This document shows, in pieces, positions 30,088 through 36,000 of a stretch of DNA of 64,000 bases. The DNA is from Watersipora subatra. Taxonomy: Eukaryota; Bryozoa; Gymnolaemata; Cheilostomatida; Watersiporidae. A model generated the notes under the pieces. The model did not search any database. It was not told the DNA's origin and worked only from the letters and a program-made list of their open reading frames with translations. The position numbers and the translations under genes were made by a program. The stretch is taken from positions 52,625,196 through 52,689,195 of the forward strand of contig NC_088708.1 of assembly GCF_963576615.1 (NCBI RefSeq), read 5' to 3'. Numbering within the stretch: position 1 is the first letter of the stretch; every line of letters begins with the position of its first letter.

Positions 30088-33000
30088 ATGTCACAGGATC
30101 CACAGGCCCGTTCGGTGCTCAAGGAGGCTGTAGATGCAGTTGTCAACAGCTTTGCTAAACACACACATGGCTATGGCCGGGGTATGTCTCATGACCTATC
30201 TTAACCCTCTTAGCTCAAGATATTTTTGCTGCACAAGACTTGTAAAACTTTATATCTGGGAATCGCGTGAGGAAAAGTGTTTTAACATTTCTCGTACAGA
30301 CAAAATACAGCTAAAAAAGAATTTCAATGGTGGCAACAGCATATATATGTATGTATATTTTTTACGGTATATGTATATGTATGGGGTACCAACGACATAT
30401 AAATATAATATATATATTAGTGCTGGGCATGGGTAATAAAACTTGTTGAACTCGAGGGTTTATCTTCTCTTGAGTTCCGGGTAATAAAAAATTCGGAGTA
30501 TTTCGGTCTTGCTGGTTCGGGTTTTGACTTGCGAGTTTTGGTACACGAATCCGTTGAGTAAAGTAGACAAAAACTTGGTCTATTGTGCCTTTAAGCACTG
30601 TTTTACAACCACCTGTTAACGCTGCTAGCATGAATATCGGTTGATAGAAAATAGTGAAAAATAATAAATAAATTGAATAGAACTATAATTGCATTTTACG
30701 TTTTAAGGTGTCTGATGTTTGAAAGTTTTAGACATGAATTTTCCAAACATCTGATCATAAAACCTGGTATCCGAAAAAATCGTTGGCTAAGAAGTACTCG
30801 TGCCCAGCACTACTAGTTACTCGATACTCTAAAAGCTCGAACGAAAAAAGGTGAGTCTAAACCCGTTGGCCAAGAAGTACTCGTGCCCAGCACTACTAGT
30901 TACTTGATACTCTAAAAACTCGAACGAAAAAAGGTGAGTCTTAACCCGTTGGCCAAGAAGTACTCGTGCCCAGCACTACTAGTTACTCGATACTCTAAAA
31001 ACTCGAACGAAAAGGGGTGAGTCTAAACTCGTTGGCCAAGAAGTACTCGTGCCCAGCACTAGTATATATACATGTACATATACATAAATGCTGTTGGTAT
31101 CATAAAGTACAGGCTTACACAACCCATTCACAGGTTTAACTACCTTTTCTTCAGAGGTTTTCTCATTTGTATTTTGATAGTGTAATGATTGATTGGTCTG
31201 TGACTTGACATCCATGCTTTTGTCGAGTCGAAACCTTCTATAGAAGTTCAAACATGAGTATTTAAAACCATTTTGCCAGAGTTTTTTTATTTAAAACTTT
31301 GATGAATTATCAGTATCTTAAGATGGCCCTTCGCTTAGCAAGTTTTAAATACAACTGTTTGGTAGTCAATGCTATGCGAAACTATTTGGGATTTTTAGCT
31401 TGGTTTTTATTTACCTTTGCTGTGCTTAATACAATTCAATTTGGAACAGCCAATGGTAACAAAAAAACACTGCTCAGCATTTATGTTTCTTATTAACATA
31501 CATGTATATGTTAACAAGAATAACATATTAACAACAACAATATAACATGGATCAATCAATAAGAATTAGTTAATGGGTCTATCCATAATCACCATTGTTA
31601 CAGTCAGAGTATAAATTTAATTATAAAATATTGGTATTGTATTTAAGATGATTTTAAATCAGATATTCTTTCAGAGCTCAACAAGCTCTTTCTAATGGTG
31701 TATAATATGTAACACTAAAGTTAATTTTTACTGAGAAAATTTTTAATTAGTGTGTCACTCGCGTTACATCAGAGAAATATGCATTTTGAAGAGCTAGTTT
31801 CTTATCCTTGAAACTCTCTGATTTGGTGGGAAGCACATTTATAAAAACTTATTTGTCTTATTTTAAAGAAGCTTGCTGACATATGCACTAAAATTCATAC
31901 AGATATTAGATGGTAGTGGTGAACTACATGCTTGTAAACATGTCACCACTGTTACATCCAGTTGTCACCATCGTTACGCTTCTTATAGTCTGTAAACTTA
32001 AAAGTATTTAAATTCACTGCAATGAGATCAATATGGTATTAAAGCTAATGATTGCAATGTATATAGACAAGCATTAACTTGAAATGTTTTTTATTGGCTT
32101 CAAAGTGTAAAATATAATAATAATAATATAATAGTAATAATACATGACAAACGTGATTAAGCTCAAATAACGTCAGATAGAAAAATGAATACTGATCAAG
32201 TAATTGTGAGAATGTACCAACAGAATGTTTTAGATCATTCTGCATGCTCTAAATCTTCTGTAAAACATTACTGACCTCTTTTAGAGAGATTAGAACAAGA
32301 CAGTGACTTGTCTATGTGATGAAATTCTACCCATGATATATCTTTTGTATTAACAACAAAAGTTTTTTTTTGGCTTCACTCTTTTAAAAATCTGCACTTC
32401 AGCTTCAAGGGCATCTACACTTTTTACCACTCCTACATAATGCATAGAAATTTTCTTTTCAGGCATCAATGTTAGCACAATATCACCTTCTTTCAATGTG
32501 CTTGCTAGTTGTTTGATGGGTTCGGAATTGCACTCACTTTCTAGATCAATAATTGCATGGTCATCAGGATTTATGTAAAAGTTAAAACTTTCCAATGGCA
32601 TACTTTTACTTTTCGATTTCTTTTTTCTAATTATCTTTTCTCATCTTCATTGCCATCTTTTGGCAATGATAGTTCAACTGTCATGGGTAGTTTACGGACA
32701 GCCTGGGGACCTATCCTTTGGAATTACTCCAATCAATCTTTTCACAGTTTTACCGTCAGATTGCAGGTTGCCAAACTGGGAAGTGGTTGCTACAAAAAAT
32801 GAATTTATACTTAATAACATTTTTTTACAAAATACTTGAAACATTAACTTAAAACATCCATAATGTACGCATATGTAGTAAAGCATTAAGTTTGTTGAAG
32901 AAAAGAAAAAAATGAATGTACATACCTGGTAATTTTACTTATAAAAGTTTTTTGCGATCTCTGTATTGCTGAATTCTAATTCTTGATTTTTCTCGAATTT

Positions 33001-36000
33001 CCTCCAATTGATCTTCTGAAAGTTGAGCTCTTCTTTTTGTTCTACTCTTTTGATTCCGACTAGCTTGGGCAGTCAAATATTGAGTCTATTGTTTTAAATT
33101 TCGACGTATTTTGTTATGATATTTATGCATCTGCTCTGCAGATGTTGTCTTGTCCATGTTGAAAGCAGAAATGACCAGCAGACTTTCAACCTAACAATAT
33201 TCTGTTTCAAGCACTTGTAACAAGTTACTCCATAAGTAGATTTGATTAAATTTTGAACCATTCTCAGTATCGGAGTCGCAAGTCTTAGTAATAATTTTGA
33301 AAGGTAGCAACCGTTTGCTAACTTGCTTGAAGAAGCTTGTTAAGTTCCCACAATGGCTTAAATTTACAATAGAATGAGTAACTCGTACATGAAAACATCA
33401 ACAACACCACAAATTACTGTTAAATGTGAAATTCACTCAAATTAATCCTATAATCATATGAGTTGAGGGGTGTAACAATGGTGACAGTGTAACAGCAGTG
33501 ACGCAAATTTCAGAAAATGTGCAACTTTGAGCAAAACTGAAATTAGTTAAAGGTACAGCATACAAAGTTAGCGTTGAAAACAAATTACTACTAATTTTGA
33601 ACTAATAATACAAGTGTAGCAGAAACTTATTGATGTTTCCTGTCACCATTGTTACTCAAAACATGCCAACTTATAAAAGAGCCCACACCAATAGATTAGT
33701 GCACACAATACCAATTTATGCATTAATGGGCAACAAAGCAATGGTGAAATCCATTACAACTAAATATTTGTGTTCAGAGTAATATGTACACCGTGTACAA
33801 GCATCTCTATCTTGCCATTATGGCTATAAAGTATTTTGTGCATATACACTAACTTCAGCAAGCTATTAAGACATGATAGAGGAGCACTACCTCCACAATT
33901 CTTTTCTATTTTAGGGTTTGGTATGTTTATTTCATACGTGAAGCATTATTTTAATGAAACTAATGTTTTGAAATTTTGTCAAAAAATCCATTTATTTATG
34001 GATAGACCCTAATAACAAAAAACTCAAGAAATCATTGCTAGAAATCATTGCTATTGGCTGTTAGGCCATGACATGTTGCCTCAACTCACTTTACTACCAG
34101 TAAATGTCACTTGCTTTTAACACATGAGATTTTTGTGGCAAACCGTTTGAAAGTTTTAACTTATTTACCGAAACAAGCCTTGACACAGGCTTGTAACGGC
34201 TGTGCATGTCAGCTTATAATCATAAGTCATCCAACTTTGTGTTGGCAGTTAAGACTGGCCTCGGCAGCGGCTGACTTGCCTGAGACTGCAGGTGAAGACA
34301 TTGATGAGATTTGCTTTGCATGACAGTGTTCTTGAAGGCTTGTAGCATGAGTCGTCTTATATTGCCTCAAGCACTATAATAGCTGATAGGCAAGGTATAT
34401 GTCTCAACCATTGCTGAGACTTCTGAACTGAAGACAGGGCTACAGAGATATATCTATTCTACCAAGTCTCCTTCTGCTGAGTAAATATAGCTTGGTTGAA
34501 CTTGATGCTTACCATGTTGATAAAGCACACAAGTGTGGTACATGTGTGTACCACATGTACCACCACACACATGATTGTTTTTGGTAGTCAGTATTCCCAA
34601 AGAAAGAAATGGCTGATCAAGCTTTGACATACGCTGATGGAAGTTCTTTTTCAGGGTAATTGATAATTGAACACTGGAATATTTATGTATTCTTTAAAAA
34701 CAGTGTCCTGACACGAGTAAACAAACGTAGATAAGCACTAGGCAGGCCTTCACTTGATTCTATCTATAGCTTAGCGATGTCAGGTGAATACAACATAAAC
34801 ATGGCTGCCTCGTAGCCAGTCGTGTAGAGAATTGTGATAATTCACTTAATGACGAAGGAAAGCTGGCTGTGAGAAAAAAAACTTGTGTGTGGCTGTTCAT
34901 TCAGAAATAGAAAAATATTGCACCTTAAAACATCTAAATTTGTAAACTGGATGTTTGGCATTTACCTAGAATAAGGCTGGTTTTTACATTCTACTCGCTA
35001 TTGCTGTATATGGTTGGCTACTATATTATATTATTCTACTTGCTATCGCTGTATACGGTTGGCTACTATATTATATTATTCTACTTGCTATCGCTGTATA
35101 TGGTTGGCCAGAACAAATAACTCTTGCAGTAGAATCAGTCAGAAGGTAAATTCACCTCTTGAACTATCTTAAACCATAACTGTCACGAACAACTTTTATC
35201 GTATTTTTTAGGTAAATTAGACACGCTGATTCCGATTTTGTACTCAAAATAAAGATTAGTCCACTAACCTTCAAAGTCATTTAAACTTTTTTAAAGCGTT
35301 TCAATATCCGTTTCAAAAACAACACAATCGGCATTACAAGCTCCGCCCATAAATATGTGACGAAACCTAGCTTTTTCAGAAACGGAAGTTGGGAATGTTT
35401 AGTCCGATTTAGAATAATAGAGATGGGTGTCTTAAAACCCATTGTTATCTAAATCCAGCCTGTAAAATAGTTTCAGTTTTTTATGAAACGGATATAAACT
35501 ATTTAAAATTGCTCGCAGCTTGTTACATGACGTTTAAATGGGCTGGACGCCGAGAAAAATGAGCTCAAAAAGCGCGGTTTTATCACGAGCTAGCGTTGTT
35601 ATTGCGCTTTTTAAATATGCAATGCTAAATAGCTTATCTACCTTTCAGAAAAGACTGATATTATTTTTAAGGCTGAATTTAGATATTAATGGATTTTAAA
35701 ACACCCATCTCTATTATTCTAAATCGGTCTAAACATCCCTACGTAACTTCTGTTCCTAAAAAGCTAGGTTACGTCAAGTATTTATGGGCGGAGCTTGTTA
35801 TGCCGATCGTGTTGTTTTCGAGACCGATATTAAAACGCTATAAAAAGTTCTTCATTACTCTGAAAGTTAGTGGCCTAATCTTTATTTTGATTACAAAATC
35901 AGAATCAGCATGTCTGATTTACCTAGTAAATATGATAAAAGTTGTTCGTGGCAGTTATGGTTTAAATATAAGTTCAAGACTAAATATGTTTTTATTGTGC

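Follow-up and report, generated by a model that had tools for sequence, protein, structure and literature searches.

What is the gene-like stretch, bounded by perfect inverted repeats, that lies at 31575..34009 of a 64-kb window from Watersipora subatra (the window being the whole stretch of DNA analysed, bases 52625196-52689195 of its contig in a 783.7-Mb animal assembly)? An earlier note had read it as a transposon with perfect 14-bp terminal inverted repeats (TIRs), a TAAT duplication and an array of 14-bp motifs near both ends, and had weighed a Sola affiliation, an undescribed family and a carrier of an accessory protein. We find that 31575-34009 is a real, multi-copy, mobile DNA transposon, ordinary in kind. 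It is, with good probability, a full-length copy of a non-autonomous cut-and-paste family that was internally deleted from a probably Sola2-like parent and is moved in trans by a coding relative.

Boundaries, copies and target sites

The full-length element (2,435 bp, no strand assigned) opens with the left TIR GGGTCTATCCATAA at 31575..31588 on the plus strand and closes with the right TIR at 33996..34009 on the minus strand, 14 nt that match the left repeat exactly (100% complementary). Target-site duplications (TSDs) of TAAT directly abut the element on both sides (31571..31574 and 34010..34013, plus strand), so that the inverted repeats and the duplication of the earlier note are both borne out in the sequence. 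Across 31 copies the TIRs are 99% conserved, against an element mean of 95.2%.

Among the same-genome matches listed, 34 of 43 span element bases 1-2435, the window copy counted, and the 33 other full-length copies are 87-91% identical to the window element. Since 40 of 125 first-look candidates were scored, this copy number is a lower bound; the boundaries 31575 and 34009 are thus common to at least 33 other copies, and the alternative boundaries that would have spoken against a transposon did not occur. Thirty-nine stretches were fetched, 35 of them with two ends, three with one (L043-L045) and one with neither (L047). A consensus of 2,440 bp was built from 31 sequences, nine of the 39 having been dropped as duplicate, incomplete or internally deleted and the window copy added. 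Copies are 91-97% identical to this consensus (the window copy 93.1%), with a median pairwise divergence of 7.1%, and the two-ended copies are uniform in length: 34 of 35 measure 2,401-2,503 bp and one measures 1,967 bp.

Exact 4-bp TSDs flank 28 of the 35 two-ended fetched copies. When four segmental duplicates and four incomplete copies were removed and the window copy was added, leaving 32 independent insertions, the exact duplication was present in 26. In a control with mismatched flank pairs, 4-bp matches arose in 17% of draws, a figure that is slightly low because self-draws (about 1 in 32) are scored as non-matches. No insertion of the 32 has a duplication of length 3 or of 5-8, and the 2-bp matches at 11 of 32 are such as AT-repeat duplications would give. 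The 26 duplications read ATAT (9), AAAT (6), ATTT (5), ATGT (3), TAAT, AATG and CTAT (one each), within a palindromic target T-R-Y-AWWT-R-Y whose successive positions are supported by 20, 24, 25 / 24, 26, 23, 25 / 24 and 18 of the 26 sites. The family therefore makes a 4-bp duplication and prefers AWWT targets, the TAAT of the window copy being one of the exceptions. Boundaries, duplication and dispersal together establish a real transposon.

A non-coding, probably internally deleted element

The minus-strand "gene" of the window copy consists of pieces in different frames. An open frame at 32353..32640 (minus strand) is the remnant of a transposase C-terminal domain, as shown by the similarity of its consensus to the terminal part of the transposase-like frame in a related element described below. 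A candidate remnant of a linker exon, placed by eye, lies at 32695..32799 (minus strand), and a basic stretch at 32942..33085 (minus strand) is the putative N-terminal exon, a transposase assignment made from its position only. The consensus fares no better. A stop interrupts its basic N-terminal stretch, the linker is broken and a C-terminal stretch follows; no transposase frame is intact, and the longest open stretch has 113 amino acids. Divergence by codon position in the N-terminal frame (5.2/4.3/3.5%) shows no purifying pattern. A real gene inside the element is thus ruled out by broken frames in both the window copy and the consensus, and the family is non-autonomous.

Searches with the remnants were likewise negative. 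The best Pfam matches, both below the cut-off, were to DUF7638 (E 0.24) and to a herpes family (E 0.085), and no catalytic motif is recognisable in the remnant. Searching IMG/VR with the C-terminal piece returned 65 pattern matches with no relative among them, and an AlphaFold prediction of the 96-amino-acid remnant made with no alignment had a mean predicted local distance difference test score (pLDDT) of 44.8 and was not used. Scans of the 64-kb window for transfer RNAs and Rfam families found none. The earlier note had said that the encoded protein is not recognisable as a transposase, and the reason is now plain: the element lacks the core and retains eroded end pieces only.

The near copies were also searched for a coding version. 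In the alignment of thirty loci to the consensus there is no space into which a core would fit, and an insertion of about 630 bp in one of them (L070) is unrelated when judged by eye. Because 34 of the 35 two-ended copies fall within so narrow a range of lengths, the ancestor that amplified had probably already lost its core. The remnants would fit the two ends of a transposase that lacks its core, the C-terminal piece being placed by homology and the N-terminal piece more tentatively.

A relative with a transposase-like frame

When the genome was searched by tblastn with the C-terminal consensus, 150 matches were obtained, made up of family copies and distant matches, some of the latter in long frames. 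Four distant matches were fetched (L078, L079, L080 and L081). One of them lies in an element of 3277 bp (G000:C10, L080:3340-6616; hereafter L080) with defined ends, an AAGT TSD of 4 bp and a transposase-like frame. Its TIRs, GGGTCTGTCCATAA and GGGCGTGTCCATAA, differ from those of the window family by 1 and 3 mismatches, and the element ends read GGGTCTGTCCATAAATAA and GGGCGTGTCCATAAATAA. The open frame (311 amino acids, 4052-4984) contains FSDGSAAQ, FATSHGKGP and GGSVKR, followed by the C-terminal domain. Its position between such ends suggests that it is a transposase, and we take it to resemble proteins of the transposase kind. A search of IMG/VR with this frame returned four pattern matches and no relative, and a search of PDB sequences returned one match (E 0.79).

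Aligned in gene orientation, the window family consensus and L080 agree at 86% over bases 1-36, at 41-45% amino acid identity over the C-terminal coding part (tblastx E 2.8e-11) and at 68% over 73 bp around the sixth of the sites described below. L080 also appears to be interrupted between its sites 6 and 7 by a nested insertion of some 0.9 kb, marked by an inverted pair at 5552-5576 / 6444-6468. On the most economical reading of these similarities, the window family and L080 would descend from one kind of parent, of which L080 would retain the core but not the N-terminal exon, and the window family the two exon ends but not the core.

The other three fetched matches are pogo/Tigger-type transposases that combine a Pfam DDE_1 domain with the same C-terminal domain. 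This small domain, with the pattern G-[DR]-[FY]-..-K-..-[YF]V, ends both pogo/Tigger (DDE_1) and L080-type frames in the genome (L078:2388-4205, L079:2434-4206, L081:4394-5521 and L080:4052-4984), and in the four proteins it matches no Pfam family above the cut-off. It may be a module shared between transposase types.

A subterminal array of seven sites

Six copies of the motif GTCACCATTGTTAC (14 bp) lie within the 2,435-bp element when no more than 3 mismatches are allowed, whereas 100 dinucleotide shuffles of the element contain 0.36 on average and never more than 2. Across the 64-kb window there are 15 matches against 6.3 expected, and six of the 15 are inside the element. Numbered in gene orientation, site 1 (33642..33655, plus strand) has 0 mismatches; site 2 (33489..33502, minus strand) has 3 in the window copy and 2 in the consensus; site 3 (33472..33485, minus strand) has 0; sites 4 (31964..31977) and 5 (31942..31955), both on the plus strand, match the motif; and site 7 (31588..31601, plus strand) has 1 mismatch and overlaps the left TIR by one base. 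Site 6 is a diverged copy, GTCACTCGCGTTAC, at 31754..31767 on the plus strand with 4 mismatches. The claim of six or more copies near both ends thus holds with six sites at this threshold and a looser seventh, and the organised end structure proposed in the earlier note is supported by the exact TIRs, the TSD, the array and the boundaries shared with other copies.

L080 has an array of its own. Seven copies of a different 14-bp motif, GTCCCGCGAGTNAC, were found, with shuffles giving a mean of 0.06 and a maximum of 2, a control that is not independent as the motif was picked from repeats seen in L080. In gene orientation the sites lie at 356, 510 and 527 / 2038, 2060, 2248 and 2414 of 2440 in the window family consensus, and at 363, 517 and 533 / 1901, 1916, 2104 and 3250 of 3277 in L080. 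Site order and relative strand pattern agree in both, with one site, two opposite to it and four like the first, and site 7 touches the TIR in both families (3250-3263 in L080). Sites 1 and 2 are 154 bp apart in both and sites 5 and 6 are 188 bp apart in both; the other spacings differ, at 17 in the window family and 16 in L080 for sites 2-3, 22 and 15 for sites 4-5, and 166 and 1146 for sites 6-7. Most of this last difference would be due to the nested insertion in L080. The chance figures for the spacing, 1.5e-5 and 2.8e-4, presuppose uniform placement and date from after the data had been seen.

The motifs themselves differ, GTCAC-N4-GTTAC in the window family and GTCCC-N4-GTNAC in L080, and as written they lie on opposite strands in the two families. 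Within each family the copies resemble one another more than they resemble the other family's motif, site 6 being the exception. The stretches between sites 1-2 and between sites 5-6 retain 43% and 37% ungapped identity between the families, against 27% when shuffled, and the 319-bp stretch before site 1 shows no likeness (25% against 28% shuffled). To judge from these comparisons, both arrays seem to derive from a common ancestor. We suggest, tentatively and as a possibility short of an expectation, that seven sites (3 + 4) form a fixed, asymmetric scaffold on which this lineage assembles, with site order, strand pattern and much of the spacing kept while the motif, and together with it the part of the transposase that binds DNA, changes between families.

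The sites could instead be left-over promoter, regulator or silencing elements, with a common layout that reflects common descent only, which we consider rather unlikely. The weak likeness of the intervals would accord with this, in that equal spacing may be inherited with no constraint on distance. Site 6 also departs from the motif of its own family (4 mismatches) and is nearer to the L080 motif on the other strand (3 mismatches). However, the sites lie towards both ends, one of them touches the TIR in both families, and the remaining copies are family-specific, as expected if one protein binds them all.

We know of no array of this sort for Sola-type elements, and subterminal site arrays have, as far as we know, been studied in hAT and CACTA elements and little elsewhere. 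In the passages of two papers that bear on the point, "subterminal" is used only for Helitrons (PMC3627910) and only for a hAT element (PMC4298943). The element would work in the manner of Ac/Ds and Hermes (hAT) and of the CACTA elements, which have repeated subterminal transposase sites and non-autonomous derivatives that are moved by a coding partner, a comparison that draws in part on the abstracts of PMC3260210 and PMC10368747.

Superfamily placement

The transposase of Sola2 elements is of the DDD type and the target of Sola3 elements is TTAA, while hAT elements have TSDs of 8 bp and CACTA elements have CACTA ends and TSDs of 2-4 bp. According to the relevant passages of PMC3627910, Sola2 elements of Dictyostelium fasciculatum (DFa-1/2/3) and Polysphondylium pallidum (PPa-1/4/5) have TIRs of 12-13 or 21 bp and AWWT TSDs, with ATAT, AAAT and ATTT printed for those of Polysphondylium, and derivatives with most of the transposase region deleted exist. 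The window family is alike in its short TIRs (14 bp, exact), its 4-bp AWWT TSDs (ATAT, AAAT or ATTT at 20 of 26 sites) and its lack of a transposase core, and the Sola lead that the earlier note had taken from the 4-bp duplication gains from the agreement with the Polysphondylium set. In contrast, the published dictyostelid elements carry Fanzor1 (PMC3627910, same passages), and the consensus of the window family has nothing open beyond its 113 amino acids. The element is accordingly Sola2-like and not proven Sola2, a label drawn from TSD, target and TIR length only.

A parent from another superfamily, either a different group with 4-bp TSDs or an undescribed one, is unlikely. The narrow basis of the Sola2 label would leave space for it, as would the lack of a Pfam match above the cut-off for the L080 frame and the lack of a Sola subterminal array in the passages of PMC3627910 and PMC4298943; against this, both the TSD set and the short TIRs agree with those of the Sola2 elements described in PMC3627910.

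Other groups do not fit the data. The TTAA target of Sola3 and of piggyBac (the latter from passages of PMC5199201, as are the group features that follow) is found in 0 of 26 duplications. TSDs of 7-8 bp for P and 3 bp for Academ, like those of hAT, disagree with a family that has 4 bp at 26 of 32 insertions and none at 3, 7 or 8. Pogo/Tigger elements (Tc1-mariner) have a TA TSD, whereas the window family has a 4-bp AWWT TSD and shares only the C-terminal domain with the DDE_1 proteins; in a scan of the three DDE_1 loci for the TIR (no more than 3 mismatches), L078 had no match, and the single matches in L079 and in L081 fall within coding frames. Miniature inverted-repeat transposable elements (MITEs) are also non-autonomous, AT-rich and multi-copy, but are shorter than 800 bp, a limit that the element exceeds at 2,435 bp. 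L080 is alike in end homology, 4-bp TSD (AAGT), C-terminal domain and seven-site array, and different in its motif, its retention of a core-like frame, its lack of a match to the N-terminal remnant, its apparent nested insertion and the distance between its sites 4 and 5.

It is highly improbable that the element is the accessory-protein carrier of the earlier note, with the minus-strand gene as passenger or helper, because, even though the remnant has no recognisable catalytic motif and the C-terminal domain, found in more than one transposase type, could be a mobile module, that piece belongs to transposase and transposase-like proteins, ending the frame of an element that shares the ends and the site array, and the consensus frames are broken.

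A model for mobilisation

Taken together, the data are best explained by internal deletion and movement in trans. A larger, probably Sola2-like element would have been deleted internally, both ends and the eroded first and last transposase exons staying and the catalytic core going. The product would be mobilised in trans, most likely by the transposase of a still-coding relative, and such a partner would be expected to have an intact coding core between GGGTCTATCCATAATCACCATTGTTAC ends. Its enzyme would bind the 14-bp ends and the seven 14-bp sites, three on the gene-start side and four on the other, and, presumably by DDE chemistry, would cut AWWT targets with a 4-bp stagger, excise the element and insert it.

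Several observations weigh against this model. The exact duplication is missing at 6 of 32 sites (a one-base difference in five, a two-base difference in one). Codon divergence in the C-terminal frame (6.5/3.0/5.5%) is lower at position 2 and is not quite plain neutral decay. No coding copy was found in the 30 loci of the C-terminal search, a negative with no core-directed search behind it. The L080 frame has no Pfam transposase match (best DUF1194, E 0.0076, below the cut-off), and the N-terminal remnant is unmatched in L080. Finally, the C-terminal domain alone cannot fix the superfamily because the DDE_1 transposases L078, L079 and L081 also end in it.

Other features of the window

A compact long terminal repeat (LTR) retrotransposon occupies 405-5416, with LTRs of about 147 bp at 405-550 and 5270-5416, a 5-bp duplication CGCAG and, between the LTRs, frames named by eye as gag zinc-knuckle-, reverse transcriptase- and integrase-like. 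An imperfect palindrome of 823 bp (35157-35979) is about 79% self-complementary with gaps. Tandem arrays are found at 39691-40160, 43455-44688 and 44717-45189 (units of 15, 26 and 42 bp) and at 60680-60996, where an AT-rich unit of 40 bp is present in about 8 copies. The repeats at 39.7-40.1 kb that resemble TIRs (AGGTCTATCGATTA) proved to be a 15-bp tandem array. To the right of the element, at 37309-37824 and 51557-60331, are LIX1 (E 5.5e-22), CUT (E 2.2e-34) and homeobox (E 5.7e-7) frames, the last two of which are taken for one Onecut gene.

Implications

For the annotation of this genome, what looks like a gene, about 3 kb away from a LIX1 exon, is explained as transposon debris. The family may be undescribed for Watersipora subatra, and no new superfamily is needed to explain it. 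Most interest attaches to the seven-site array common to a diverged relative, resting as it does on two families. These two families, whose corresponding sites carry different motifs within one genome, amount to a natural experiment on the joint change of a transposase and its sites, and the matching sites tell which bases to test. If the basic N-terminal piece were to bind in a family-specific manner, distinguishing GTCACCATTGTTAC from the GTCCCGCGAGTTAC site, this would point to a joint change of the enzyme and its sites.

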